DNA from: Candidatus Rifleibacteriota bacterium
GTDB taxonomy: Bacteria; Muiribacteriota; Ozemobacteria; Ozemobacterales; Ozemobacteraceae
DNA: 33,280 nt
Assembly: GCA_012517355.1 (NCBI GenBank)
Contig: JAAYVD010000155.1
Span: forward strand, 1 to 33,280
Reading direction: 5' to 3'
Shown one piece after another: positions 4,001 to 19,216 of the stretch (the stretch's first letter is position 1; each line of letters opens with the position of its first letter). A model generated the notes under the pieces. It made no database searches. It had not been told where the DNA came from and saw nothing but the letters and a program-made list of their open reading frames with translations. Position numbers and translations under genes: made by a program.

Positions 4001-7000
4001 GGGAAGAATGGCGTAGGCCACCGAGGCTGTCCGGGGGTCGTCGATGGTGAAGTGCAGGTAGACGGGCAAAGACCCGACGGCTGCCTCCTCGACCACGGCC
4101 GAGGTGGGGGAGAAGGTGGCGCGGATGGCCATCGAGTTGTTGCTCGGCGGGGTGGTCCCGACAGTCACCGGCAGAGATTGGGTCGGGGTTTCAATGCCCT
4201 TCGAGGAGCGGAACTTGGCGTAGACCGTATAGGCCCCGGGCCCGGGCAGATAAAGCGTCTTGGTGGTGGCGTAGGGATCCCAGCCCACGGCGTCGAGATC
4301 GATGCCAACCTTCATGTCCATGCCGAGGCCGTCGGGGCTCTGGGCATACAGCTTCAGGTTGACGTAGGTGCGGTTGAGGGGCATGGTGTCGTTGGTCGAC
4401 AACGAGGCACTGGCGGGCCCGATGGTGGTGATGGAATCGGACACGGTGACGAGCCCAGACGGTGTCTCGAACCGCACATACACCGTCCGCAACCCTTCCG
4501 GCCCAAAGGTCTTGGTCGGTTCGGCAACGGTTGTGTAGACATTCCAGGAATGGGTGGTGGCATATGGATAGGCCGTGGCTCCGGTGAAATTGCCGTCGTT
4601 GCTGAACCACATGCGGTGGGTGGGCAGGGAATCGGGCGAGGAAAGGGTGAGGTCGACGGTGGGATCAAGCGTCGTGGCATCGCCGCTGTTGATGACGATG
4701 GTGGGCGAGGCCGGGGTCGGCCCGGCCACCTGGACATCGAGGCTGATCCAGTCGGAAACGACCCCGGCCACGCTCTTGAACCTGGCGTAGACTTTCTGCC
4801 ACCCGCTGGTGGGGTTCAACGAGAGGGAGGCGGTGGTGGCGAAGGGAACCCAGGTGGCGATGGACAGGTCGGTATAGGTGGCGGTCAGGGCCATGGAAGC
4901 CACGTTCGTTCCCGCGATCCAGAGATTGACCCCATAGGTGGCCAGAGGCTGGGTGTCGGAGGTGGTCAGCGACAGGCCGGTGGGACCGATGACCTGAATC
5001 GAATCCTGGCCATAGGAGAAGTTTCCTGAGGCATCTTCGAAGCGGGCATAGACGGTTTGCTGGCCGGGCGTCAGGAGCAGGTCGTAGCTGGCCAGCACCC
5101 AGGCATAGGTTGCCGGTGCATAGACGGTCTGGGTGGCGGTACCGAACAGGCCGTCCCGGGACAGTCGGTAGAATTTGGCCGTCGTGGAATGGAGCTTGAG
5201 GGTGGCCGACCCGGAATAGGTCTGGGCGTCTCCGTCATTCAGTTCCACCACGGTCAGCGAGGCAACCTGGATATCGACGTAGGCAACGTCGGATTCGACA
5301 TTCCCGGCGTTGATGAATTTGCCATACACGCGGTGGGTGCCGGGGGTCTGTCCCAGGATGAACGACCTGGTGGGCGCGAAGGCTTCGGAGGCGGTGGTCA
5401 AGAGGGCGGCCGGGTTTTCGCTCAAGCCCATGGAGGTGGCCCCGTTCGCGGTCAAGCTCAATGTCACCGTGTAGGTGGTCACCGGTTGGGAATCGGCACA
5501 GGTCATGGTGACGTTGGTGGGGCCGACGGTCTGGATGGAGTCGCTGACGGTGACATACTCATAGTTGGCGTTCCGAAGGCGGACATAGACGGTCTGGTTC
5601 CCGGGCACGGAACTGAGCTGGATGCCGGTGATCAGGAAAGATCCATCCGGCTGGACCCCACCGGCCGTGATGGTGTTCCAGGTGGCCCCCGTGAAATTGG
5701 GACTTCCGGTGGCCACCTGGTAGGCCAGGTTGTCGCCATAGAACAGGCTGGCATCGACGGAGGAATCGTTCGTGGTCGCGTCCCCATCGTTGATCAGAAG
5801 GGACGAAGAGGCGGGAGGAGGTTGCCCGACCTGCACGTCGAGGGTCAACATCGCCGTCTCGACCGCTCCGGCATTCCGATATTTGCCGTAGATCCGGTGC
5901 TGACCGATGAAGGGCCGGAGCGGATAGCTCGCCACCTGAAAGTCGAAGGGAACCCAGGAGGCAGGGGCGACCGGGTCGAGGTCGTCGTAGGTCTCGGAGA
6001 AGGCCATCGACACGGCCCCGGTGGAGAAGGGCCGAAGGTTCACGGAGTAGGTGGGAATGGGCTGGGAATCGTTGGTGGTCAGGGTCGAGTTCGTCGGTCC
6101 GACGAGGGTGATCGTGTCACTGATATCGACCCAGGCGGTACGTGCGGCGTTCAGCAAACGGACATAGACGGTCTGGAGCCCCGGGCTTGACCCAAGGGGA
6201 ATACTGGAGATCCGAAGCGATCCGTCGGGGTTGAAAGGCCCGACGGAAATGGAGGCGATCGGTTTCCCGGTGAAATCGGCCACGGCGGTCGCCACGAGGT
6301 ATTCCCGGTAATCGGCGAAATACAGGTTGGCCTGGCCGGTGGCCGAGGTGGTGGTCTCCGCCCCGCCGTTGACCATGAGGGTGGGTGACGCGGGCGGTCG
6401 CACTTCGACCTGCAGGTCGAGAGAAAGGATGTTGGTTTCGATCCGGCTGGCGTTGCGATACTTGGCATACACCCGGTGCTGCCCGTTGAAGGGCTGCAAG
6501 GTGAAGGTGGCCAGGTAGGTGAAGCTGGCCCAGTTCCCTGGGATGTCGTCGAGCTCGGCGTAGTCCTCCGTCAGAAGCATGTCCTGTACGCCATTGGCGA
6601 AAGGCCGGAGGAGCACGGAATAACTGGCCAACGGCTGGGTGTCGTTGGTGGTGAGGGCCGCGTTGGTGGGTCCCATGACGGAGATCGAGTCGCTGGCAAT
6701 CACGAACGTGCCGCTGGTCTTGCGGAACCTGACGTAGACGGTCTGGACTCCGACCGTAGGAGCCAGGGTCACGCTGGCGACCCAGATGCCCGTGGGGTTT
6801 TCCAGGGCGGCAATGGAGTATTCAGGAACCGTGGCGAAGGAGTCGGTGAGGGACACGGCGTAGAATTCGTAATCGGATGGATAGAGGCTGACCGACGCCA
6901 GATTGGAGGAGGTCACCGAATCGCCCAGGTTGACCAGGATGGTCGGGGTGCCGAGGGCGGTGGCCGAGGCGACCAGGACGTTGGCCGACAGCACGTCGGT

Positions 7001-10000
7001 CTCGATGCCGCCCAGGTTCCGGTATTTGGCATACACGGTGTGGACGCCCGGTGCGGAGGCCAGCTGGAACAGCGTGGAATAGGAGAAAGACGCCCAGGCG
7101 GGCGCCGCCAGTTTCCCATAATCCTCGGTCAGGAACATGTCGGCGGCATCCATGGCGAACGGCCGGAGGTTCACCTGGAAGGTCGTGAGGGGCTGGGTGT
7201 CGGCCACCACCAAGCTGGCGCTGGAGGGTCCGTTGACGCTGATGGTGTCGCTGGCAAACGAGAAAACCCCGTTGACGTCCTCGAAACGGGCCCAGACCGT
7301 TTGGATCCCGGCCCGCCGCAGGAGCGGGAACGCGGGGTGCAACACCGAGCCATCCGGTTGGTATCCGGTGGCTGGTGGGAACGGGTTGTCGGGAAGGGCA
7401 TTCTCGTAGGAGTTCTCCAGGGCCAGACGGTATTTTTTCGCCACGGGGGAGACCAGGTTGACGCTGACGGTGGCGCTGTCGGTGGTGGCATCCCCGTGGT
7501 TGATGACGATGGATGTGGGCAGGTCGGCGGTGACCGTCCGCAGCTCGATGGTCTTGTACCCGATGGGAGTCGTGTTGCCCAACTGGTCGGCAAAACGGTA
7601 CCACAGGAAGTAGGTGCCGGGACCGGTGATGAAGCGGGCGGCGACCAGGGCCTGCGGGGGGAACGGCGGAGCGACGTTATACAGCACGCCCGCCGTCGGG
7701 GGGGTGGGGTCGTTCACCAGGCCCAGGTAGTAACTGGCGGTGGCCGTGCGGGCATCCTTGATATCGAAGTGCAGGTAGACCGGGAGAACCGTAGTAGATG
7801 CCAGTTCCGTCGAGGTCGGGCTGTACGTTTCCCTGACGAAGACGGTGTTGCCGACGGGCGGGCTGGTGGCGACATCGACGGTCATCGTGATCGGCAGGGA
7901 CTCGATATAGTAGGCGTTGGAGGCGTTGCGGAACTTGGCAAACACCGTATGCCGGCCGCCTCCCGGGTTGAGGGCCACCACGTAGGTCGCCGTGTAGGTC
8001 CGCCAGTCGGTGGACGTCTCGAACACCGCCTGGCTGTCCTTGATCAGCATCTGGACGGCCCCGGCCGCGTAGACGTCGAGGTTGAGGTTGAGGGAAACCA
8101 GGGGCGACGCATCGGGAGTCGAGATGGTCGCGCTCGACGGCCCGATGGCGGTGATGGTGTCGTTCAGGATCAGATAGGCGCCCGAGGCATCCTGGAGGCG
8201 GGCGTAGACGGTCTTCGTGCCGGCCACGTGGTCGATCGTCCAGGGCTGGTTGACCGGGCTGGTCGTGAGCGGAATGCCGGCTCCCGTGCCGAAGTTGCCG
8301 TCGTTCGAGAACCAGGCGGTGCGGTATGCACCCGGGAAAACGGTCAGCACCACGCTGGTGGAGGAGGTCTGCGAGTCGCCCCCGTTGATGATGAGGGTCG
8401 GCGATGCCGGCGGCAGGGTGGTTGCCTGCACGTTGATCGACATCAGCTCCGTCTCGATCTGTCCGGCATTCCGGTATTTGGCGTAGATCGTGTGATACCC
8501 GGGAATCTGGGTCAGCTGGAACAGCTCGGAGGTCACGAAGGTGCGCCAGAGGGTGGGGTCGTTCACCTTGGTGATGTCTTCGGTGACCAGCATCTGGCTG
8601 GCCCCGATGGCGAAATACTTCAGGTTGACCGCATAGGTGGCGAGAGGCTGGGCGTCAGTAGTGCCGAAGGTATAGCTGCTCGGGCCGAGGACCTGGATGG
8701 TATCGCTGGCGAAGGAGAATTCTCCCGAGGCGTTTTCATACCGGACATTGATCATCTGCATGCCCGCCAGCGGGGTCAGGCGGTAGGGGACCCGCAGAAG
8801 GGGAACGGTGAAGTTCTGGTCGGGGACCCCGAAGAAATTCATGTTCTCGGCCAGCCGGTAGAACTTTGCATCGGGGGACCTCAGGTCCAGGGTCACGGTG
8901 GCCGTGGCGGTAGTCTGGTCGCCCTCGTTGATGACGATGGTGCCGCTGCCGGCGGGGGTTCCCTGCATGGTGATCTCGGCGCTGACGATTTCGGAGGTGT
9001 TGGTGGCGTCGTCGACGAACCTGGCATACACCGTCTGCAACCCATAGCCGCCCAGGACCCATTTCGGGATGGTTCTCGAAGAGGAATACATGGAATACGA
9101 GGCGGCCCCGGTGAAGGATTCGTCGTTGGAAACGAAGACGAAAGCCGCGCCGGTGGCCAGGGCGGTCAAGTCCACCCGAAGATCGGTGGTGGTGGTGGCC
9201 CCGTTGTTGATTTTCAGCACGACCCCCTCGGGGGGGGTGGCGTCCAGGATGATGCTGGCGGCGATCGGTCCGAACTCGTTTTCCAGTTCGTCGCGGAACC
9301 GGGCGTAGACGGTCTTCTTGCCGTCGCCTTCGTCAAGGGTCCAGGCGTAGGGCGTCGTGAAGGTCTCCCAGGTGTCACTGGCGGTGAACGCCGAATCATT
9401 GCGGATCTGCATGGTCGAGGCGCTGGTGCGGGCGGTGAGGTTGAGCACGACCGCCCGCTGGTTGGTCTTGGCGGCCCCGCCGTTGATCTTCATGATGACG
9501 TCGGGCCCGGTGGTGTCGAGGCCGATGGTCGCCGTGAAGATGGTGTCGGGATTGGCGCCACCGCCCTGGAACTGGGCATAGACGGTCTTGACCCCATCTC
9601 CCGTGGAAACCTTCCAGCGCCGGATCTCCGCGTAGGTCTCCCAGAAGGAGTTGAAGAAATCCTTCCGGTCGGATACCCGCATCTGCGTTGCCCCGGGATA
9701 CAGGAGGGTCAGGATCACCTCCAGCTTGTTGGTGAACGGCTTGCCGTTGTCGATCCAGACACCGAGATACCCTGCGGTCGTCGTGTTCAGGGTGATGGAA
9801 TCACTGATGACGGGGGACTCGTTGCCCGCCGAGTCGCGGAACTGGACGTAGATCCGCTTGGTGCCGTCACCCGCGGCCAGGGTGTAACTGCGCAGGGTGC
9901 CGACGGATTCCCAGACCTGGCCTGTCAGATCTTCCGAATCTCCCAGGCGCATCTCGACCGCGTTGGTGGAGGTCAACGACACCTTGACCGCCGTGTTGCG

Positions 10001-10726
10001 GGTCTCGAAGGCCCCCTGGTCGATGGCGATGCCCAGGTAGGTGGGGCCGATGGCGCTGGTGGTGCGGGCATCCACCCCGGAATAGCGGAACACCTGACCG
10101 TCCTCGCTGCGCAGGATGACGATGAACCCATAGCGGGAGGACGGGTTGAGGGGAGAAAGCGTGATCTCGTGGGTGGTGCCGTAGCTGGAGCTGACCGGCA
10201 CGGTCTGCTTGTCAGTATCGGTACGCCAGTATTCCAGGAGGGAAGTGCACCGCATGTTCGAGGTGAAGCTCAACCGCAGGCTGGTCGAGGCGATCTTGTC
10301 GAGCACCACGGTCTTGAGGCTGGCCAGGGACTTTTCGGGAAGCTGTTTCTGGCTGGAGGTGGTGATCTGGACACCGGACTCGAAGATGATCTCGCTGTCA
10401 CCCGTCAGGGCCACGAGATCGTAGAGCCCGGGCGGTAGGGTGGTGAACGCGAAGTACCCGCCGCTGTCGGTGCGGGTGGAGGCCACGATGGTGCCCGTGC
10501 CGTCGAAGCGGGCGGAGGCCGTGGTGCCGCCGGTCGAATCCCGGACGATCACGGGGATGCCGCCATACTGCGACCGGTCGGCGAAAAAGACCCGGCCGGA
10601 CAGGACCACGTTCGAGGGGGTTGTGGGGCCGGCGCCGCCATCGCCCCCGCCGCCTCCGCCGCCGCCCAGGCAGCCGAGGAAGACGATCAGGGCCACAACA
10701 ACGGCCAGGGCTCCCCACCAACGCAT
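1079..10726 (-). CDS. Giant modular surface lipoprotein: Ig/FN3-like repeats with C-terminal Asp-box propeller
   Basis: A 3215-residue lipoprotein. Residues 1-18 are a signal sequence with lipobox FLGC (lipidated Cys19), followed by a poly-Gly linker (20-33). About 38-125 resembles a carboxypeptidase-regulatory-like beta domain and about 130-220 an FN3-like domain. From about 220 to 2290 there are about 22 modules of 85-100 residues. Each has a short INxGDxxT-type opening, an LxxxAxxMxLSxD core and a closing VYAxFR/VYAKYRN strand. Many alternate between two types, one ending SDSI and one opening with NDTQPL and a YxVNL strand. Two copies of a third type (VYLHF, WYRF/WYKF) punctuate the array. 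Residues about 2300-2790 hold Ig-like domains, several with a GLYTAP-type motif. Residues about 2793-3215 look like a beta-propeller with two Asp-boxes (YRSIDAGRSF, YRSKNAGATW). The start has no Shine-Dalgarno but an extended -10 lies just upstream. It probably acts as a cell-surface adhesin or scaffold; the ligand is unknown. Confidence 0.9.
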   Translation of the reverse strand: MRWWGALAVVVALIVFLGCLGGGGGGGGDGGAGPTTPSNVVLSGRVFFADRSQYGGIPVIVRDSTGGTTASARFDGTGTIVASTRTDSGGYFAFTTLPPGLYDLVALTGDSEIIFESGVQITTSSQKQLPEKSLASLKTVVLDKIASTSLRLSFTSNMRCTSLLEYWRTDTDKQTVPVSSSYGTTHEITLSPLNPSSRYGFIVILRSEDGQVFRYSGVDARTTSAIGPTYLGIAIDQGAFETRNTAVKVSLTSTNAVEMRLGDSEDLTGQVWESVGTLRSYTLAAGDGTKRIYVQFRDSAGNESPVISDSITLNTTTAGYLGVWIDNGKPFTNKLEVILTLLYPGATQMRVSDRKDFFNSFWETYAEIRRWKVSTGDGVKTVYAQFQGGGANPDTIFTATIGLDTTGPDVIMKINGGAAKTNQRAVVLNLTARTSASTMQIRNDSAFTASDTWETFTTPYAWTLDEGDGKKTVYARFRDELENEFGPIAASIILDATPPEGVVLKINNGATTTTDLRVDLTALATGAAFVFVSNDESFTGAASYSMYSSSRTIPKWVLGGYGLQTVYARFVDDATNTSEIVSAEITMQGTPAGSGTIVINEGDQTTATATVTLDLRSPDAKFYRLAENMNFFGVPDQNFTVPLLRVPYRLTPLAGMQMINVRYENASGEFSFASDTIQVLGPSSYTFGTTDAQPLATYAVNLKYFAIGASQMLVTEDITKVNDPTLWRTFVTSELFQLTQIPGYHTIYAKYRNAGQIETELMSINVQATTLPPASPTLIINGGDSQTSSTSVVLTVFPGAYRTAWFSNDGNFGTGAGIPLTTSPVNQPWTIDHVAGTKTVYARLQDASGAYLILNDTITAIGPSSATISTPDASPLVSLNLNLDVYAAGAVQMLIKDSQAVFETSTDWRTYTATYVVALNPGGGRHTVFAKFRNASNAYYIESLPITMTVDVATSPPVGNTVFVRETYSPTSTELASTTVLPVYLHFDIKDARTATASYYLGLVNDPTPPTAGVLYNVAPPFPPQALVAARFITGPGTYFLWYRFADQLGNTTPIGYKTIELRTVTADLPTSIVINHGDATTDSATVSVNLVSPVAKKYRLALENSYENALPDNPFPPATGYQPDGSVLHPAFPLLRRAGIQTVWARFEDVNGVFSFASDTISVNGPSSASLVVADTQPLTTFQVNLRPFAMDAADMFLTEDYGKLAAPAWASFSYSTLFQLASAPGVHTVYAKYRNLGGIETDVLSANVLVASATALGTPTILVNLGDSVTSSNLASVSLYPSDYEFYAVSLTDSFATVPEYSIAALENPTGIWVASVTLAPTVGVQTVYVRFRKTSGTFVIASDSISVMGPTNAALTTNDTQPLASYSVLLRPFANGVQDMLLTEDYAELDDIPGNWASFTYLATFTLQPFNGQHRVYAKYRNASRIETNILSLDLQVEVRPPASPTLMVNGGAETTTSATGQANLYFADYREYLVATAVADFTGKPIASISVGPFNPDGSLRISSIPLGSSPGLQTVYVRLLNAARTAWVDISDTITLVGPTNSTLTTNDSQPIPTYSVNLRPFSTGAVSMAFSETYDDLDPVAPASWVPFDFQVASYPLRPFIGQHRIYGKYRNAGAVETAMLTLDVQVGQPPPASSSLLINDGDATTNDSSVDASLFYGDNLAYQVATGSPNFTGATWNTITAGGVQPDGSFLITGIQLSSVPGNQTVYVRLRNANYEYVTVSDSIQTVGPTNVTMTCADSQPVTTYTVTLSLTANGATSMGLSENPAALLTTASEAFAPTRSFILGQTPGTHRVYGKFINAGNVESDVAYVDIQVASLTVVELNDGDAQTYSGSATLKLHSTTAKFYRLSRDGLFGTATQTVYAPATYAWVLASYDLLLTPGQQTVYARFEDASGNFSYGQDSIQVIGPTGLSLTTSDTQPLATYGVNLWIAGTNVASMALTATYTDLSIATWVPFATTASLSLNPTSGWQKVYARFKSVAGVVSDWISLDVQVAGPTPASPTIVINSGDATTLDPTVDLTLSSPDSLPTHRMWFSNDGNFTGATAYPYATTHSWNVYTTVAEPTKTFGPEGLRTVYVRFETPSGLVTVSDSITTIGPASASLSTNDTMPLNRTYVNLKLYAQSPDGLGMDMKVGIDLDAVGWDPYATTKTLYLPGPGAYTVYAKFRSSKGIETPTQSLPVTVGTTPPSNNSMAIRATFSPTSAVVEEAAVGSLPVYLHFTIDDPRTASVAYAILPDTASAPSTWAVLIPPVGPIAVNKPPLQRLVNNIWYKFGDGAGNWSDVQMKPLYLRGPGLRVTPKTKILYSGQSQTFTAIPENIAPPIKWQLTSGPGTGNIDADTGLYTAPASLLAPATATILAYVESDPTASDTATVSLLTQVEWEWVNTESPVMVGKVATFTCYLRNLPSSATLTIISPPTQGTLTIATPPTYMATATVVECLYTAPSPTYTGATDTMTVGCIAAPSKTQVLTAYLSLGPVVTISPTSATGQARRTPVTITATTDSYPSSITWFIIPGTASGSFSSTVATNSVLTTDDSGVAPNNHTVTFYPYDTGGTLQVVASWTNATPTPTASPTATCTIQVKDAVAVTLTPIATQAPSVIIPIPFSANVRNSENGVTWSFRSGGSPPGFLFPADGNLRDIGTLASSGVYTRPTSIPASGSAVEIIATAIDDASATAIATVTLLQPVQVKISKGYAYADPQLASAEVLLEVDSLKLIASVTNSMNDTTVTWKVNGITGGNSTYGTIDSSGLYTAPASMPSPSSFDITAVSNYDPSKSAAVSISLKEFWVARSVGLVDGASTPLPISSLLVDPIWPNLADETASGVAVFNLYAGTKGFGVWYAAANATLATTPSDLVWRPTTLGTTVPAAGSKFQVNKIAINNSTHDIAAATEDGLWIIPRAGHNPRTFGAPIQVANLSASSAKSLAWDPNNPTYLYLARDYGLERIRFANTVTASPSVYTIVASEPLWLNVAYYQKETRTGALGSPPADVDVVAYGDSSQWKALFTNSPQVVALAKSDPNRMYSGFYSGEFSDIQDIKDILNPLAMNDSSVTGFWYFDGPSGVASSPGRAPYLRTPLPPRPVNTSPTNLGIIYDISIDPGNPNTLLVASSLGVYRSIDAGRSFTLLAPSTNSYATLIDPTNVTYFFYGAENGLYRSKNAGATWSRIQSGLASTLTIYSFCQSPGPAGTKRRIWVGTSNGVFADGRSLDLE

Positions 10727-10987: not shown

Positions 10988-11836
10988 TCAGGCCCTGACG
11001 GCGGGGGCGCGGGTGGCGTCGATGGTCTGGCTTTCGAGGTGTCGCTTCTGATACAGGCGCTGGGCAGCCTCGGCCACGTCGGCGACGAACAGCAGGTTCA
11101 TGGCGGCGCCCACCCCCCCACCGACCACGGGGATCACCTGCGCGGCCTTGCGGCGGGCGAGGTTGATGCACAACTGCTTGGCCAGGTTGCGGACGGCAGC
11201 GGCGAACGCTTCGCGGCCGAGGATCTCACCCTCGGTCTTCTTCAGGGCGTTCTCGGGCGGGCGGTCGAGGACCGTCTTGAGCTCCATGGCCGCGGCCACC
11301 GCCTGCTTCTTCTCCTCGACGCCGTTGGCCGCCCCGGCGCTCAGGCAGTGCAGGACGAAGGGCCGCTCCTCGTCGCGGGCGGTGTCGTAGCCGTAGCAGT
11401 AGCCGGTCTTGCGGATGGTGCGGATGGCGATGACGATCAAGGCGGGAATGTCGGCGGCCAGACCGAGGAACCCGGTCATGCCGGTGACCGCGCCCTCGGC
11501 GCCGGCCAGTCCCTTTCCCCACTTGGCCACTGAAGCGGCCAGGCAGTCGGCGACATGGAGCGGCGCTTCGCGGAAATCGGTCACGGCCTTGGCCTCGAAG
11601 CCGAGCACGCGGGCCTCGGTCAGCAAATCCTCGCTGCCCGACACGGCCGAGGCCGCCTGGAAGGCGGCGTTGAGGGCCTGTTCCATGGCCGGTTCGGGCA
11701 CCACCTGCTTCGCCGCCCAGGTCAGGGGGGCGGAAAAGAAGCCGACGGCGCGGGCCAGGTGCGAGGGGGAGCGGTCCTCCCATTCCTCGATGGCGCGGAT
11801 CTGCTGCTGCTCGTATTCACCGTGGCGGCTGTCCAT
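10988..11836 (-). CDS. EcsC family protein
   Basis: A 282-residue protein of the EcsC family, named after a Bacillus subtilis gene beside the EcsAB transporter; its biochemical role is unsettled. The family pattern is seen in the N-terminal helical segment with WAAKQVVPEP, the central hydrophobic stretch GMTGFLGLAADIPALIVIAI followed by RTIRKTGYCYGYD, the ERPFVLHCLSAG block, and a C-terminal AAQVIPVVGGGVGAAMNLLF segment that may associate with the membrane. The start is supported by AGGAGG nine bases before the ATG. It lies downstream of the terminator at 11935-11961 and has a possible promoter of its own, so it is probably transcribed alone. The next gene downstream is the giant lipoprotein, across about 260 bases; a functional link is not shown. 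Confidence 0.85.
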   Translation of the reverse strand: MDSRHGEYEQQQIRAIEEWEDRSPSHLARAVGFFSAPLTWAAKQVVPEPAMEQALNAAFQAASAVSGSEDLLTEARVLGFEAKAVTDFREAPLHVADCLAASVAKWGKGLAGAEGAVTGMTGFLGLAADIPALIVIAIRTIRKTGYCYGYDTARDEERPFVLHCLSAGAANGVEEKKQAVAAAMELKTVLDRPPENALKKTEGEILGREAFAAAVRNLAKQLCINLARRKAAQVIPVVGGGVGAAMNLLFVADVAEAAQRLYQKRHLESQTIDATRAPAVRA

Positions 11837-11902
11837 GGGGGGGCCCTCCTGTGGGGTGACGGGCGGCCGCGGGGGAACGGCGGCACGGCTCCGATGCTTT
11901 CA

Positions 11903-11931
11903 GCAGTAATACATCCGTTTCCGTACGTCAA
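11903..11931 (-). promoter_or_regulatory. Possible sigma-70-type promoter of the EcsC gene
   Basis: TTGACG (11926-11931) and a weak -10 TACTGC (11903-11908) are separated by 17 bases. The -35 overlaps the T-run of the upstream gene's terminator. The -10 is a poor match, so this is tentative. Confidence 0.3.
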
Positions 11932-11934
11932 CAA

Positions 11935-11961
11935 AAACCCGGGCCACGAGGGCCCGGGTTT
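11935..11961 (-). terminator. Intrinsic terminator of the small secreted protein gene
   Basis: A perfect 11-bp stem (11935-11945 with 11951-11961, arms aaacccgggcc and ggcccgggttt) with a 5-base loop lies 15 bases past the stop codon. Read on the minus strand, the stem ends in TTTTTGTTG. It separates this gene from the EcsC gene. Confidence 0.88.
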
Positions 11962-11975
11962 GGGGAACGCAGGAC

Positions 11976-12350
11976 TTACTTGGTCTCGGGGGCGGCGGGA
12001 GCGTCGGCCTTCTTCTCCTCGAAGCTCTTCACCATGAAGCCCTCGGACTTGCCGTCCTTGGCGGGAACCTTCTCGCCTTCGAGAACGAAGGTCTTGTCGG
12101 CCAGGCCTTCGACCGCGAGCAGCTCGGTCAGCTTGTCGCAGGGGAGGAGGGTGAGCTCGGCGTCGGCGGTCTTGACGGTGACGACATCGGGCTGGCCTTC
12201 GGCCTTGGTGACGACGATCTTGCCTTCGACCTTGACGAGGGCGGCGGCGGGAGCGGCGGCGTCAGCGGCGGGGGCGGGGGCCGCGGCATCCTGGGCGAAA
12301 ACCGGGAGGGCGATCAGGGCGACGAGGACGGCAAAGATAAAGCGCTTCAT
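11976..12350 (-). CDS. Small secreted Ala-rich protein under a sigma-54 promoter
   Basis: A 124-residue protein not recognised as a named family. Residues 1-18 are a clear Sec signal peptide (MKRFIFAVLVALIALPVFA, cleavage probably before QDAAAP). An Ala/Pro-rich linker follows, to about residue 36. A compact domain then reads VKVEGKIVVTKAEG...VVTVKTADAELTLLP, suggesting a small beta structure. The C-terminus is Glu/Lys/Ala-rich. The ATG at 12348-12350 is preceded by AGGAG at good spacing. The open frame extends upstream to a TTG, but that extension would run through the sigma-54 promoter at 12404-12418, which supports the shorter start. It is expressed as a single gene closed by a strong terminator. 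It is likely a periplasmic or secreted product made when the neighbouring NtrC-type regulator is active. Confidence 0.85.
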   Translation of the reverse strand: MKRFIFAVLVALIALPVFAQDAAAPAPAADAAAPAAALVKVEGKIVVTKAEGQPDVVTVKTADAELTLLPCDKLTELLAVEGLADKTFVLEGEKVPAKDGKSEGFMVKSFEEKKADAPAAPETK

Positions 12351-12403
12351 GTGATTCTCCTGTTGATGGTGTGATTTCGGGCGTGATACCCGACGCCCTT
12401 GGC

Positions 12404-12418
12404 GCAGTACCCGTGCCA
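12404..12418 (-). promoter_or_regulatory. Sigma-54 (RpoN) promoter, -24/-12
   Basis: The minus strand reads TGGCACG-GGTA-CTGC. This is a perfect -24 element, the required GG-N10-GC spacing, and a -12 differing from TTGC by one base. The predicted transcript starts near 12392, giving a leader of about 42 bases to the ATG at 12350. The promoter directly follows the gene for a sigma-54 activator. Confidence 0.8.
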
Positions 12419-12463
12419 ACTCATGAAATCGTCTCCTGAACGGTGTTTCGGCAAACCACCTGC

Positions 12464-12526
12464 GGAGAATTCCCCACGCGGGACTGCGGGAATTTCCCCA
12501 AGCGGAGCTGCACTGGGGAATTTTCC
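12464..12526. promoter_or_regulatory. Three palindromic putative activator (UAS) sites
   Basis: Three related palindromes occur: ggagaattcccc (12464-12475), gggaatttcccc (12488-12499) and ggggaattttcc (12515-12526). Their centres lie about 77, 101 and 128 bases upstream of the predicted sigma-54 start, where enhancer sites for NtrC-type activators are normally found. The outer two also form the arms of a 17-bp imperfect hairpin just after the regulator stop codon. No T-run follows on the minus strand, so a terminator role is less likely. Confidence 0.55.
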
Positions 12527-12531
12527 GCAGG

Positions 12532-13932
12532 TCACCCCTTGCCGGTTTCGGGGTCGCCCAGGCCGTACTTCTTCAATCGGTAGCGCAGGTTGTCACGGGT
12601 CATCGCCAGCAGCCGGGCTGCCTGGGTCTGGTTCCCCTGGCTCTGGGAGAGGGCCAGTTTGAGATATTGCTTCTCGACGGAATCCAGGAGGGTCTGCAGG
12701 TCCAGTCCCTCGTCGGGGAGGGTGGTGGCCGGAGCCGCGGCGGCCAGGGCCGCGACCGCGGCTGGTTCGGGGGCCAGCCCCAGGCTGGTTTCGCCGATCC
12801 TTTCGCCGGTTTCCAGGATCACCGCCCGCTCGACGCAGTTCTTCAGTTCGCGGATGTTCCCCGGCCAGTCGTATCCCAGCAATCGCCGCGAAGCGCCCTC
12901 GGTCAACCCCTGGAAGGTGCGGCGATATTTGTTCTGATACGAGTCGAGGAAATACCGCACCAGCAGGAGGATGTCCTCGCCCCGCTCCCGCAGGGGGGGC
13001 AGGGTGATCGGGACGACGTTCAGCCGGTAGAACAGGTCTTCCCGGAACTCGCCGCGCTGGACGGCCTGGCCGAGATCCTTGTTGGTGGCGGCGATGATGT
13101 TGAGGTCGACCTGGATGGGCCGGCGGCCGCCCACCCGCCAGATCTTCTGCTCCTCGAGCGCCTTGAGGAACTTGGTCTGGATGGTCAGGGGCATCTCCCC
13201 CACCTCGTCGAGGAACAGCGTGCCGCCGTCGGCGACCTCCATCAACCCTTTTTTGCGATCGATCGCACCGGTGAAAGAGCCCTTTTCGTGGCCGAACAAC
13301 TCCGACTCGAACAGGTTCTCGGGAATGGCCCCGCAGTTGATCTCGATGAACGGCGCGTTGGCGCGGGGTCCCAACCGGTGCAGCTCGTTGGCGACCAGCC
13401 CCTTGCCGGTGCCGCTCTCGCCGTTGATCATGACCACCCCCGCCCCGGCCCGGCCGATGCGGTCGATCGACTCGAGGACCGCCTGCATGCGAGGCGACTT
13501 CCCCACCACCCCGTAGCGGGGCCGCCGCTGGGCCCGCTCGGTCTGCAGCGAGTCGACCTCCTTGCGCAGGCGGACGGCTTGTTGGGCATTCTGCAGGGTC
13601 AGCCGGATCTTCTCGAGCGAGAAGGGCTTCAGGATGAAATCGAACGCCCCTCGCCGGATGGCGTTGACGGCCACCTCGACGTCGGCGAAGGCGGTCATCA
13701 TCACGACCTGGGTGTCCTCGTTGACCGCCTTGACCCGCTCCAACAGGTCGAGCCCGCCCATCCCGGGCAGCCGCACGTCGAACAGGGCCAGCTGGAACGG
13801 CCCGTTGTCGAGGTGGGGAAGGGCTTCCTCGGCGGACCCGCAGGCCGTGACCCGGTAGCCCGCCTTCTCGAGGTCCTTCTTCAGACCCCACAGGATCAGC
13901 TTCTCGTCATCCACCAGCAGTATGTTCGTCAT
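12532..13932 (-). CDS. NtrC-family sigma-54-dependent response regulator
   Basis: A 466-residue three-domain regulator. Residues 1-120 are a receiver with acidic pocket D8/D9, phosphoacceptor D52, T80 and K102. Residues about 140-380 are an AAA+ sigma-54 interaction domain with Walker A GESGTGKG (171-178), the sigma-54 contact loop GSFTGA (218-223, canonical GAFTGA), Walker B GGTLFLDE (236-243) and DWPGNIREL near 355-363. After an Ala-rich linker (391-402), residues 411-455 form a Fis-type HTH (QTQAARLLAMTRDNLRYRLK). AGGA lies seven bases before the ATG. It lies 44 bases downstream of the kinase gene, so they form a cognate pair. It activates RpoN promoters when phosphorylated; the nearest is 113 bases past its stop. 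The organisation recalls PilR, but PilR identity is not established. Confidence 0.93.
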   Translation of the reverse strand: MTNILLVDDEKLILWGLKKDLEKAGYRVTACGSAEEALPHLDNGPFQLALFDVRLPGMGGLDLLERVKAVNEDTQVVMMTAFADVEVAVNAIRRGAFDFILKPFSLEKIRLTLQNAQQAVRLRKEVDSLQTERAQRRPRYGVVGKSPRMQAVLESIDRIGRAGAGVVMINGESGTGKGLVANELHRLGPRANAPFIEINCGAIPENLFESELFGHEKGSFTGAIDRKKGLMEVADGGTLFLDEVGEMPLTIQTKFLKALEEQKIWRVGGRRPIQVDLNIIAATNKDLGQAVQRGEFREDLFYRLNVVPITLPPLRERGEDILLLVRYFLDSYQNKYRRTFQGLTEGASRRLLGYDWPGNIRELKNCVERAVILETGERIGETSLGLAPEPAAVAALAAAAPATTLPDEGLDLQTLLDSVEKQYLKLALSQSQGNQTQAARLLAMTRDNLRYRLKKYGLGDPETGKG

Positions 13933-13976: not shown

Positions 13977-15716
13977 TCAGGCGGGGGGGCCGCCCTCCAC
14001 CCCCGGCGGCGGGGGGGAGGCCGCGGGATCGTTGCCGCCGCGCGGCAGGCGGATCTCGAAGCGGGCCCCGGGCAGGGTCTGTCCGCCAGTCACCCGCACG
14101 CTGCCGCCGTGCCGTTCGACGATATCGGCGACGATGGCCAGGCCCAGGCCGGTTCCCTTGTTCTTGCGGGAGAAGAATGGGTCGAAGACCCGCTCCCGAT
14201 CCTCGAGGGGGATGCCCGGGCCGGAATCCTCCACCGCCAGCAGGATCATGCCTTCCCGGCCGGACGGGCCGCCCTGAGACCCGGCCGGTCCGGACGTTGC
14301 CGGGAGCGGGGACGGCCCCGGGCCGATGCCCGGAACGGGGGTAGCCCGCGGACCTCCGGGGTGGCCGGAGGACCCTGCCGCCGTCGGGTCGGTGGGAGGC
14401 CCTGCCACCATCGTGTCGGTGGGTGACCCGCGGCCGGCGGGAAGGTCTTCCCCGCCCCCATCCGGGAGGCGGGGAACGGGGACCGACCCCCGAACCGGGG
14501 CGTCCGGGTCGATGGAGACCCTCACCAGGACGCGGCCGCCGTTCCCCGTCGCATCGAGGGCGTTGGTGAGGAGGTTGAGCAGGGCGCGGTGGATCTGCGA
14601 CCGGTCGATCCATGTTTCGTCAGCTTCGGGGGAGACGGTGACCTCGAACGCGGCCTGCCGCTCGGCGAGGGTGGAGGACAGGAGCAGCCGCAGTTCCTCG
14701 AGGAGGGCGGTCCAGCGGCTCCATTCGCGGGTCAGCGGGCGGGGCCGGGAGAAGACCAGCAGGTCGGAGATGATCCCGTTGACCCGGTAGACCTCCTTGA
14801 GGACCTCGCGGAAGATCGGCTTGTCGGGATGCCCCTCCGGGAACCCCCCGTCCAGGACCTGGATGGCGGTGCCGATGGCGGCCAGGGGGTTGCGCACCTC
14901 GTGGGCCACGGTGACCGCCCAGGACAGCATCGAGGACAACCGCTTCTGATGCTGGCGCAGGGAGCGGGTGAGCTGGTTGAACGAGTCGATCAGGTCGCGC
15001 ATCTCGCGGGCCCCGGCCGGGGTGGCGGCGGCGGGGATGCCGGTCTCCTCGGGGTTCCGGATCACCTCCATGAGGTGCCGCAAGGGGGCCATGGCGGCGC
15101 GGTGAAGATACCAGGCGAACAACCCGCCGCCGGCGAGCATCAGGCCGGAAACAACGAGCAGGCGTTCCCAGAGGGTGCCCAGCTGGGACCGCAGCAGGCC
15201 TTCGACTTCGAGGCGGGAGTTGCGCTCCTGGGTCAGGACGGTGCGGATCTGCTCGTGGATCTGCGACCGTGTTTTCTTGATCTTCTGGAGGGTGGCGGGG
15301 GAGACGGCCCCGATCGTGAAGTTGGGGTTGATGGTGAAGGTGGCGTTGGCCAGCAGGCCGGCCATCTCGAGGCGGGCGCGGTCGAGATCCTCCAGTTCCC
15401 GGCCCCGGCGGCGGAAGGTGGGGTTCTCCCTGGCGCGGCCGAGCAGGGTTTCGAGGCGCCGGCTGAACTCGAAGTAGTTCCGCCAGGTCTGCTCGCCGAG
15501 ATACTGGTCGAACACCTCCTGGGTCTGGACCAGTTGCAGCAGGTCATCCTGCAACTGGCTGCCGGCGTGGAGAAAGTCGTCGGTGTCGGCCAGCTCGGCT
15601 GAGGAGTCCAGGGCATCGCGGAACTCCCGCAGGGAGATGCCCATCACCACGAGCACCGACAGGGCCAGGGCGAGGAACCCGAGAAAGATGCGCTGGGAAA
15701 GGCCGATGCGCTTCAT
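13977..15716 (-). CDS. Membrane sensor histidine kinase with Gly/Pro-rich insertion
   Basis: A 579-residue kinase. TM1 is about residues 7-29, the extracytoplasmic sensor about 30-183 (helical, charged), and TM2 about 184-205. A HAMP-like segment follows, then a HisKA domain with H272 in AHEVRNPL, and a HATPase with N-box N385 (LLTNALDA), G1 DSGPG (497-501), F-box DPFFSRK and G2 GTGLGL (521-526). Between the N and G1 boxes sits an insertion of about 86 residues (404-489) rich in Gly, Pro, Ser and Thr; kinases normally have a short loop there. The C-terminal tail (561-579) is also Pro/Gly-rich. The start MKRIGLSQ places TM1 at the N-terminus. Its Shine-Dalgarno is weak, and the gene starts 28 bases after the pseudopilin stop, so it is probably co-transcribed. 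It should phosphorylate the adjacent NtrC-type regulator. Confidence 0.9.
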   Translation of the reverse strand: MKRIGLSQRIFLGFLALALSVLVVMGISLREFRDALDSSAELADTDDFLHAGSQLQDDLLQLVQTQEVFDQYLGEQTWRNYFEFSRRLETLLGRARENPTFRRRGRELEDLDRARLEMAGLLANATFTINPNFTIGAVSPATLQKIKKTRSQIHEQIRTVLTQERNSRLEVEGLLRSQLGTLWERLLVVSGLMLAGGGLFAWYLHRAAMAPLRHLMEVIRNPEETGIPAAATPAGAREMRDLIDSFNQLTRSLRQHQKRLSSMLSWAVTVAHEVRNPLAAIGTAIQVLDGGFPEGHPDKPIFREVLKEVYRVNGIISDLLVFSRPRPLTREWSRWTALLEELRLLLSSTLAERQAAFEVTVSPEADETWIDRSQIHRALLNLLTNALDATGNGGRVLVRVSIDPDAPVRGSVPVPRLPDGGGEDLPAGRGSPTDTMVAGPPTDPTAAGSSGHPGGPRATPVPGIGPGPSPLPATSGPAGSQGGPSGREGMILLAVEDSGPGIPLEDRERVFDPFFSRKNKGTGLGLAIVADIVERHGGSVRVTGGQTLPGARFEIRLPRGGNDPAASPPPPGVEGGPPA

Positions 15717-15744
15717 CAGGGTGTCACGGCCGTCGGCGGGAGGG

Positions 15745-17982
15745 TCAGAACGAGGAGAATTCATCGGCGTCCGAGACCGAGTCGTCCCAGCTGACCAGGT
15801 TGAAGGCGGCTGGGGGATACGGCGGGAAATAGTCGCCGCTGCCGCGCACGAAGGTGGAGTCCCAGACGTTGCGCCGCACGATGCAGAAGTCGTTGCGGAA
15901 CCGGCCGTCCAGGAAGGGCGGGGCGGGGCGGGTCCGCAGGGAGATCCGGCCGCCCAGGTGGCGCAGCAGCATGCGGGAGTCGGAGCCGATGAATGGGAAA
16001 CACCGCATCTCGCGGCTTTCGATGTTGCCCAGCTCGTTCTGGACCTTGGTGGCGCCGTCGCCGGGGTCCCAGCGGGCATTCAGTTCGCCGGAGTCGATGA
16101 GCAGGGCGTTCACGGTCATCTCGGGGAAGCGGAACAGGGTCTTGGGGCGGCTGGTGGCCATCTTGAAGATGCGGTCGGCGATGTTCCAGGGGCCGAGACA
16201 GCGGTCAGGCTCCTGTTCCTCGATTTCTTTGGCGGCCTGGTCGATGGCGGACCCGATGATGTGGTCGCGCTCGCCCTTGGTGAGGAAGCCGGTCATGTAG
16301 CACGCGGTTCCCAGCTTGGCCACCAGTTCCTTGCGCTTGAGGAACCCCTTGATACAAAACCGCTGTTTGTACAATTCGGGATCGGTGGTCGGCTCGAAGT
16401 ATTCCTTCACCGGCTTGAGGGCGGAGTTCATGAACAGGGCGGCCAGGGTGAGGGGAATGACCTCGGGCGGCTCCTTGGGCAGGGCGAACAGGGCGCTGAT
16501 GCCCTTGAAATTGAGGGCGGTCATCGGCAGGCGCTTGTCGGAGGCCGAGGTGCTGAAGCGGGGCGGGTAGACGATGCCGGCCAGCACCACCGGGTTGACG
16601 TCCTTGCCGCCGAGGGCCATGGCCAGGTCGTAGTCCATGACGGTCATCATCTCGCGCCGCAGGAACAGCACGGGGTTCGAATAGTCGAACCAGATGCGTC
16701 CCATCGACAGGACGGCCACGCCGTTCTTGTCGGTGCCGTTCTCGGGCGGGTCGTGGTAGTCACGCCAGCCGAGGTCGTAGTACTGGGGGTTGTCGGGGTT
16801 CTGGTTGAAATCGCCGGCGAAGTAGACGTCCTTCTCGCAGAAGATGGTCAGGGCCTTCCAGGGCGGGCAGCCCCAGATGCGCAGGGGAACCGTGGAATAA
16901 AGCAGGACCTTTTCCTGCTGGTCCCGGTATTTCCAGCCGAAATCGAGGTTGTAGACGACCTCGTCGGGCTTGGCCGGGTTGCGCCACTTGGCCTCCGAGA
17001 ACCCGTCGAACCCGCTGCCGGGGGTCAGCATGGTCGGCCGCGGGTCGGTCGCGTCGCGCCAGTATTTCGGGTTCAGGGGCGGGAACTTCTCCGACTTCCC
17101 GCCGTGCATGCCGTCGAGCACGAAATGGGTCAGCACCGTGTCGCCGCTCATCTCGGGGAAGGTATCGAATTCGCCGGGGTGGCTGGAGTCCTGGTCGGGC
17201 TTCAGGCGCCCACTCTGGTTGTTGCGGAAGGCGACGTGGGTGCTGGCGCTGATCACCAGGTGGCCGGGGGTCGAGATCTTTTCCATCTCCTCGAGTTCGT
17301 GCCCGGCGTCGAACACCCCCCGCTTGCCCACCCGCAGCATCTCATGGCCGTACAGCCGGCCCCGACGCAGGATGCCGGGCACCAGGCGGTAGGGGCCGAA
17401 CCCGCCCAGGTCGAGTACCTGCCCGTCGTACGCCTGGTAGGCCGCCGGCAGGTATTTCTCGAGGACGGCGCTGACCTTGCGGTAGGAGTCCTCGACCCGG
17501 CCGATGGCCTCGAGCTGGAAGTAGCGGTGGGACTCCTCGACGGTCTTGGTGTCGAGGCTGTTCTTGGCGTTGATCAGCTTGACCCGGACCTTGAACTCGC
17601 CCACCAAGCGGTTTTTCCGCAGGGTCACCCGGCCGGAGTAGGTACCCCGCAGGTTGTGGTCGAGTTCCAGCCCGTCGACCTCGCCGACGAGGAAGGGCCG
17701 GTGCCGGGCGGGGCTCGACCAGCCGGCCTGCGGGATGTAATGGTTGCCGTGGGTGCAGAACTGGGGGTTGGCCTTCATCTCGGCCAGGACGCAATGCACC
17801 CCCGCCTCGGCCACGCACAGGGCCAGGAAGTCCTTGGCGGTGCGCGACAGCAGGTGGACCTGCCCGCGCTGGAAGTTGATCATGGCCCCGGCGAGGATGC
17901 CGAGTACCAGGCAGATCATCAGCACGACGAGCAGGGCGTTGCCGCCCGCCGCGGGGCCCCGTGGACGTGGGCGGAGGTTCAT
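15745..17982 (-). CDS. PilX/GspK-like large pseudopilin
   Basis: A 745-residue protein with a single N-terminal hydrophobic helix, GGNALLVVLMICLVLGILAG (residues 13-32), after a short basic leader. This is how PilX/GspK-type minor pilins begin. They carry a Gly before the helix and lack the Glu5 of major pilins. The rest is a large extracellular domain with no recognised fold, much bigger than ordinary PilX. The early part keeps the amphipathic helix pattern AGVHCVLAEM typical of PilX. A GGAG precedes the ATG by about eight bases. The start overlaps the previous stop as ATGA, so translation is coupled to the PilW-like gene. Probably a tip or assembly component of a type IV pilus or type II secretion machine; the large domain may be the effector or binding part. 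Confidence 0.7.
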   Translation of the reverse strand: MNLRPRPRGPAAGGNALLVVLMICLVLGILAGAMINFQRGQVHLLSRTAKDFLALCVAEAGVHCVLAEMKANPQFCTHGNHYIPQAGWSSPARHRPFLVGEVDGLELDHNLRGTYSGRVTLRKNRLVGEFKVRVKLINAKNSLDTKTVEESHRYFQLEAIGRVEDSYRKVSAVLEKYLPAAYQAYDGQVLDLGGFGPYRLVPGILRRGRLYGHEMLRVGKRGVFDAGHELEEMEKISTPGHLVISASTHVAFRNNQSGRLKPDQDSSHPGEFDTFPEMSGDTVLTHFVLDGMHGGKSEKFPPLNPKYWRDATDPRPTMLTPGSGFDGFSEAKWRNPAKPDEVVYNLDFGWKYRDQQEKVLLYSTVPLRIWGCPPWKALTIFCEKDVYFAGDFNQNPDNPQYYDLGWRDYHDPPENGTDKNGVAVLSMGRIWFDYSNPVLFLRREMMTVMDYDLAMALGGKDVNPVVLAGIVYPPRFSTSASDKRLPMTALNFKGISALFALPKEPPEVIPLTLAALFMNSALKPVKEYFEPTTDPELYKQRFCIKGFLKRKELVAKLGTACYMTGFLTKGERDHIIGSAIDQAAKEIEEQEPDRCLGPWNIADRIFKMATSRPKTLFRFPEMTVNALLIDSGELNARWDPGDGATKVQNELGNIESREMRCFPFIGSDSRMLLRHLGGRISLRTRPAPPFLDGRFRNDFCIVRRNVWDSTFVRGSGDYFPPYPPAAFNLVSWDDSVSDADEFSSF

Positions 17983-18728
17983 GGGTTGACTCCGTTCGGC
18001 CGGCCGCGCACCGCGAAGCAGGTGCGGATGACCTGGGCGGACCGGTCCTTGAGATCGGCCTGGCGGGTTCCTTCCCGGACGAAGGTGATGCGGACGTGCA
18101 CGAGAAAGGCCCCGGTGCCGTCAGAGGGGTATGGCTCGAAATCGAGGAAGTTCTTGAAGGGGAGTCCGGCGAACGAGCTGAATTTCACCGGTTTGCGCAG
18201 GGTCGCGAAGACGATCATCTCCTTCACCCCGCCGCAGACCTTGCGGGTGGCCTTGAACGGTGAGGGCAGGCCGGGCCGGGGCGGGATCTCGGAAACCATG
18301 TCGCGGAACAGGTCGAAGGTGCCGTCGGCGGCCTTTTTCAGGCGCCAGTCGACCTTCACGCGGCGGAGGAACTTCTTGTCGGGGGGTTTGACGGCAAAAT
18401 CGAACATGGTTTTCTCGAGGGTACAGACCACCCCTTCCGGGGCGGCGGTCAGGGTGCGGACATCCTCGCGGCGGATCGGCCAGGGGAAGGGCACCCGGTT
18501 GGCGGTGCGGACGTCGTGGCCGAACTGCGCCAGGAAGAGACGGGCGTTCTCGTTGACCCCGATGTGCTCGAGGGCGGTGCGGATCGCCCGGACCTCGGCG
18601 AAGAACAGGCGATAGGCCGCCATCAGCAGCAGCAGGAACAGGGCCATGGCGATCATGGCCTCGACGAGGGTCAGGCCCTTCCCCGGCCGCCGCCCCACCG
18701 CCTGCCAGCGCCGGCCCGTCGTCACCAT
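17979..18728 (-). CDS. PilW/GspJ-like prepilin protein
   Basis: A 249-residue pseudopilin. A basic leader of about 17 residues ends in GKG, followed by LTLVEAMIAMALFLLLLMAAYRLF. This is the type IV prepilin peptidase site (cleavage after Gly) with Glu5 present. The C-terminal domain is soluble and predicted to be periplasmic or extracellular. Two starts are possible, ATG at 18726-18728 and GTG at 18723-18725; both overlap the upstream stop codon. Position in the order V-W-X and size suit PilW or GspJ. It is the second gene of the pseudopilin-kinase-regulator operon. Confidence 0.82.
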   Translation of the reverse strand: MVTTGRRWQAVGRRPGKGLTLVEAMIAMALFLLLLMAAYRLFFAEVRAIRTALEHIGVNENARLFLAQFGHDVRTANRVPFPWPIRREDVRTLTAAPEGVVCTLEKTMFDFAVKPPDKKFLRRVKVDWRLKKAADGTFDLFRDMVSEIPPRPGLPSPFKATRKVCGGVKEMIVFATLRKPVKFSSFAGLPFKNFLDFEPYPSDGTGAFLVHVRITFVREGTRQADLKDRSAQVIRTCFAVRGRPNGVNP

Positions 18729-19216
18729 ACGTCGGCGTGGGTGGTGGCCGCCTCGAACACCATGGGCGTCCCGTCCTCCTGGGCCTTCCACCGGACCGTC
18801 ACCCGCACGAACTTGCACCCCGAGGGCAACCCGTCGAGCAGGCTGGGGCAATCGGTGATGGCGACCTCGCGCTTGAACTCGACGGGGCCCACCTTCACCA
18901 CCGGCACGAACCCCTCGCCCGCCTCGTCGTCGAACGGCTGGCCGAGGTTGTTGAAGTCGTACAGGAGGCTGTCCTTGCGGCCGTCCTTGTCGGCGCCGAG
19001 TTCCCGGTGGCGGGCGGCGCGGACCGCCTCGATGGCCTGGGTGGCCAGGGCCACCGCCACCTCGTAGTCGCGCACCTTGCGGACCCCGAGGAAGGAACTC
19101 GAGATGGTCCACCCGATGGCGAACACCATGGCCAGCAGGGCGGCCGCCACCAGGATCTCCACGAACGTGACCCCGGCGGAACGGCAGCGAAGCGGGGGCG
19201 GGCAGCGGGTCGGCAT
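18722..19216 (-). CDS. PilV/GspI-like prepilin protein
   Basis: A 164-residue pseudopilin. A leader of about 15 residues ends in SAG, then VTFVEILVAAALLAMVFAIG, a prepilin cleavage and methylation site with Glu5. The mature domain contains ATQAIEAVRAARH, the helix continuation typical of PilV/GspI, and a short beta-rich end. The chosen ATG has GAGGAG six bases upstream; a longer open frame upstream lacks such support. It is the first gene of the operon, 36 bases after a predicted transcription start. Confidence 0.85.
   Translation of the reverse strand: MPTRCPPPLRCRSAGVTFVEILVAAALLAMVFAIGWTISSSFLGVRKVRDYEVAVALATQAIEAVRAARHRELGADKDGRKDSLLYDFNNLGQPFDDEAGEGFVPVVKVGPVEFKREVAITDCPSLLDGLPSGCKFVRVTVRWKAQEDGTPMVFEAATTHADVW

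Follow-up and report, generated by a model that had tools for sequence, protein, structure and literature searches.

The genes under sigma-54 control tend to be those for exported and surface proteins (PMC3162934), and most of the two-component sigma-54 regulons of Desulfovibrio vulgaris hold one to four operons (PMC4641369). In Aquincola, the gene for the exported PEP-CTERM protein PepA is RpoN-dependent, with a mapped promoter reading TGGCAC / CTGCTT and a predicted upstream enhancer (PMC9850573). The kinase PilS of Pseudomonas aeruginosa has six transmembrane segments, which are counted here as a difference from the present locus (PMC6058289). For the phylum considered here, a literature search found no regulatory work.

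The window, meaning the whole stretch of 33,280 nucleotides that was analysed, comes from a metagenome assembled genome of the Ozemobacteraceae (Riflebacteria), 7.1 Mb in size, that groups with Candidatus Ozemobacter and other Riflebacteria. On its minus strand, which carries all parts of the locus placed below, a regulator gene is followed by three 16-bp palindromes, a sigma-54 promoter, and the ATG of an exported protein. From sequence and comparison, a two-component system behind pseudopilin-like genes probably (at about 0.78) drives this one output gene via the local palindromes and the sigma-54 promoter.

The kinase and regulator genes follow, in the same order as in relatives, a GspJ-like pseudopilin (17979..18740; weak matches to TIGR01711, gspJ, and TIGR02532, prepilin N-terminus) and a large protein of 745 aa directly ahead of the kinase (15745..17982), in which a prepilin-like N-terminus was read from the sequence and for which no Pfam or NCBIfam family match was obtained. 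The initial annotation makes no mention of this pseudopilin-like setting. The sensor histidine kinase (13977..15719; Pfam HisKA and HATPase_c) has a membrane-anchored N-terminus and keeps its position in relatives. The response regulator (466 aa, 12532..13932; orthologues 62-80% identical) has the NtrC-type arrangement of a receiver, an AAA+ sigma-54 interaction domain, and a Fis-type HTH (PF00072, 1.3e-26; PF00158, 1e-66; PF02954, 3e-12; also PF25601), and its AAA+ loop reads GSFTGA, listed as a functional GAFTGA variant (PMC4641369). It scored 425.5 bits against the NtrC equivalog TIGR01818 (cut-off 558.6) and 395.2 bits against PrsR TIGR02915 (cut-off 502.6), and passed no NCBIfam equivalog cut-off among the best 25 matches listed. 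Elsewhere in the window, 1079-10726 encodes a protein of 3215 aa whose N-terminus is lipoprotein-like (LGCLGGGG) and for which Pfam gave no match.

The exported protein (124 aa, 11979..12350) was predicted in the initial annotation and is borne out by the open reading frame, which encodes a signal peptide, an Ala/Pro-rich linker, and a domain at residues 39-112; its orthologues are 59-75% identical. The AlphaFold2 model has a five-strand, one-helix domain (pLDDT 80-88 in the core, 69 overall), and Foldseek returned OB folds, none with E < 0.001. The domain is thus a predicted OB fold. The protein itself has no Pfam or NCBIfam match, and for the BOF family (PF04076) none of the six orthologues gave a Pfam match up to E = 5.

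The promoter was read directly as TGGCACGGGTACTGC at 12418-12404, which is where the initial annotation had placed a minus-strand TGGCACG-N4-CTGC between the regulator and the exported protein. It has the form GG-N10-GC (-24/-12; TGGCACG-GGTA-CTGC against TGGCACG-N4-TTGC), and this invariant core is kept in its counterparts in six genomes. The ATG at 12350 lies 67 bases from the -24 GG, and a +1 placed about 24 nt after the GG would give a leader of about 42 nt, in which case the 42-base leader proposed earlier is recovered. The window genome has 109 matches to TGGCAY-N6-TGC, and the reversed control gives 91; because of this near-equal frequency the promoter pattern alone is weak evidence, and the weight of the match rests on its position and its conservation in six genomes. 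No sigma-70 promoter-like site was found by the consensus scanner in 11800-12700. The rpoN gene was not found in the fetched stretches, a small share of the window genome, and its presence is implied by the 18-19 strong sigma-54 activators, with differing HTH regions, that this genome encodes. A GC-rich hairpin with a T run (AACCCGGGCCCTCGTGGCCCGGGTTTTTGTT, 11925..11965) stands 3' of the exported-protein stop codon as a probable intrinsic terminator; the transcript is therefore probably monocistronic. The hairpin is absent from the consensus-scanner list, and similar ones follow the gene in two relatives, G003 and G014.

The three activator-like palindromes are TGCGGAAAATTCCCCA (palindrome 1, 12514..12529), TGGGGAAATTCCCGCA (palindrome 2, 12485..12500), and TGGGGAATTCTCCGCA (palindrome 3, 12461..12476), all identified by direct reading and comparison of site centres and the first two also by a strict-motif scan. 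Measured from the -24 G, their centres fall 104, 75, and 52 bases upstream, or at about -128, -99, and -76 relative to the expected +1, in close agreement with the earlier estimate of about 77, 101, and 128 bases upstream of the predicted start. The interval 12404-12526 given with that estimate was right in its palindromes and slightly short at its end, as palindrome 1 ends at 12529/12530. As candidate sites, recognised from sequence, they fit the inverted repeats expected 80-150 bp upstream for NtrC-type activators. The motif CTGCGGRRAWTTCCCCA has exactly three mismatch-free occurrences in the 7.1-Mb genome, all at the locus, and the strict symmetric palindrome TGNGGRAWWTYCCNCA has two, both at the locus (reversed control, 0). 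Strict copies elsewhere in relatives lie in a 16S rRNA gene or in coding sequence and are without a sigma-54 promoter.

Of 24 family genomes, 8 have an orthologue of the regulator. A close orthologue of the exported protein is encoded in six of these eight and in none of the other 16 (Fisher p = 2e-4, relatedness not corrected). The order regulator, palindromes, promoter, exported protein is common to six family genomes, and TTGGCA[C/T]-N6-TGC occurs 67-79 bp ahead of the exported protein in all six. Loss of the palindromes where the gene pair is kept had been named at the outset as an outcome that would count against the proposal; they are retained in all six genomes with both genes. Centres lie 103, 75, and 51 bases upstream of the -24 G in G001, the middle one placed by hand (O. 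sibiricus: about 75 and 51), 103 and 73 in G014, and 115 and 86 in G004, about one helical turn further than in the window. Two-fold symmetry is retained within changed sites (TGAGG..CCTCA in G001, TGTGG..ACACA in G004). The palindromes of G003 are weak or degenerate, and in G007 a repeat insertion has moved them about 700 bp away from the promoter. Within that insert (L048:6430-6800) a palindrome of the repeat is present in four copies about 78 bp apart, and activator sites and promoter are both kept. G010 and G008 keep the regulator, with no site or promoter in the 357-417 bp before the contig end, which is consistent with loss or displacement and not decisive. In genus g4, where the regulator is absent, weak and more distant homologues of the exported protein are without a sigma-54 promoter. 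A distant homologue from another family of the phylum (L036, G031:C51) is preceded by TGGCATGTAAGTTGCT, about 84 bp ahead of its likely ATG, and no regulator was found within the 3.3 kb examined.

The local palindromes have relatives elsewhere in the genome, and another activator of a wider set of exported proteins with TGNCGGAWWTCCGNCA-like sites might bind them, the promoter being sigma-54-dependent all the same and the neighbouring regulator incidental. Motif work drew on a sample of about 100 fetched sigma-54-like sites, not the whole genome, and 34 of these stand within 100 bp of a gene start that has a ribosome-binding site. An unbiased search of 34 other sigma-54-like promoter regions gave TGCCGGAATTCCGGCA, with an objective of 115, whereas 12 shuffles, made in blocks and not preserving exact dinucleotide counts, reached no more than 49. 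Its profile ranked two held-out window sites 1st and 2nd in 33 kb, so the local palindromes do resemble the wider motif, and a score of at least 12 was reached by 10 of the 34 gene-bearing promoters and by 1 of 65 controls. Since some ten other sigma-54-like promoters carry a related palindrome, another of the 18-19 activators could act here. Against this, the local half-sites have the form TG-N-G, and 28/28 from the six genomes with the adjacent regulator carry G at position 4, whereas at other sigma-54 promoters position 4 of the related motif is C in 25/30 and G in 4/30, in a comparison that was not blind, as the sites were chosen by hand and by profile. The locus is the only place in the genome with the strict form, and the sites are spaced 29 + 23 bp, whereas those elsewhere form tandem pairs 21-23 bp apart. 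Control by such an outside activator is accordingly judged unlikely. Because the motif is unique and conserved and differs from the related one at position 4, the local sites look specific to the adjacent regulator, which on the simplest reading would have its own site and essentially one target. Within this genome, the position-4 rule (G or C) may tell one activator apart from a related one.

It is common for activators to control their own genes, and the palindromes adjoin the regulator gene. The initial annotation had allowed that the sites might autoregulate the regulator operon. This suggestion did not hold up well: the sites are 3' of the regulator and kilobases away from where its gene run begins, the strict palindrome has no copy elsewhere in the genome, and the placement of the sites with respect to the downstream promoter is conserved, which makes it very unlikely that they serve mainly the kinase-regulator operon, with or without the exported gene. 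A role at the RNA level, with the repeats forming hairpins at the 3' end of the regulator transcript and the promoter match coincidental, would suit the 19-nt inverted repeat formed by palindromes 1 and 3 and the folding of the 201-nt region (z = -2.2 against shuffles, 6/200 as good). It is nevertheless highly improbable, as symmetry is conserved within each site and not between sites, no T run follows the repeats, no Rfam match was obtained, and the promoter (in six genomes) and the site-promoter distances are conserved. The conserved stretch might also be explained by a translated ORF of 24 codons overlapping the promoter (ATG 12424), which has AGGAG 8 bases before its ATG and overlaps the exported-gene ATG as ATGA. 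This candidate was rejected and its probability is practically negligible, since GG-N10-GC is conserved and the codons are not, and a TAA, read by eye, interrupts the frame in O. sibiricus.

Other sigma-54-like promoters with the TGNCGGAWWTCCGNCA motif were seen in G000 at L134, L137, L144, L165, L176, L184, L193, L203, and L219. They mostly precede small exported proteins, some of them Gly/Gln-rich, and the motif often forms tandem pairs with a spacing of 21-23 bp, at roughly -65 to -127 relative to the -24 element. At L165 (contig C61:78000-79400), two divergent perfect sigma-54 promoters are each followed by a small exported protein and share two central palindromes; in O. sibiricus, a perfect sigma-54 promoter (L273) precedes an exported protein similar to the minus-strand one. 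Sigma-54 promoters also stand before a Flp-type pilin in G000 as well as in G001 (L180 and L276). For a pilC/gspF-like gene (L179, L307, L308), G000 and G004 show a sigma-54-like promoter and G014 a weaker match, and in G004 there is a TGTGCGGAAATCCGCAC-like palindrome. Two candidates for further targets were rejected: a pseudopilin operon on contig C54, considered as a regulon member because of a strong palindrome and a perfect promoter in its upstream region, whose arrangement is not kept in G001 or G004, and a pilC-like gene on C95, whose palindrome differs (TGTGC-N8-GCACA).

The preferred reading, a local two-component system with one output, can be set out as follows. The histidine kinase would phosphorylate the NtrC-type regulator, dimers of which would bind the three TGNGGAAWTTCCNCA palindromes just downstream of their own gene, the sites being drawn from sequence and conservation. 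The AAA+ domain of the regulator would then remodel sigma-54 RNA polymerase at the TGGCACG-N4-CTGC promoter. Remodelling of this kind is established for the regulator family. The transcript would start about 42 nt before the ATG, at an expected position of about 12393, and probably end at the hairpin-plus-T terminator, carrying only the 124-aa exported OB-fold-like protein. The earlier proposal that the adjacent regulator drives this protein as a dedicated output thus gains support from comparison, through the six-genome conservation and the locus-unique strict palindrome. A further step, in which the kinase senses the exported OB-fold protein itself as an extracytoplasmic report on the function of a pilus-like apparatus, closing a one-gene feedback loop, is speculative and quite unlikely; the parallel is PilS, which senses PilA, except that the reporter here would not be a pilin. 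The locus offers a ready-to-test trio of activator, sites, and promoter from this phylum, and the known leaning of sigma-54 towards genes for exported and surface proteins gains an example from the Riflebacteria.

Among known proteins and systems, the exported protein is, like the BOF family (periplasmic OB-fold proteins such as E. coli YgiW, PDB 1nnx), small and exported, but it differs in having no Pfam match; the Foldseek match to YgiW (TM 0.42/0.54, 20% identity, E 0.03) is not significant by E-value. The Aquincola PrsK-PrsR / RpoN system (PMC9850573) shares with the locus the promoter type, a predicted upstream enhancer, an exported product, and an implicated two-component system, whereas the regulator here falls below the PrsR cut-off and the exported protein has, by eye, no PEP-CTERM motif. 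PilS-PilR / RpoN / pilA of P. aeruginosa (PMC6058289) is alike in tying a kinase-regulator pair to pilin-type genes and in the sigma-54 promoter of one exported protein, but the adjacent target here is a predicted OB-fold protein and not a pilin. The local regulons of D. vulgaris (PMC4641369) likewise have the activator gene beside its sigma-54 target and sites upstream of GG-N10-GC, and differ from the locus in phylum, motif, and target protein. The arrangement is a known, ordinary type of bacterial control, in which an NtrC-type regulator is encoded beside the single sigma-54 target gene that forms its output.
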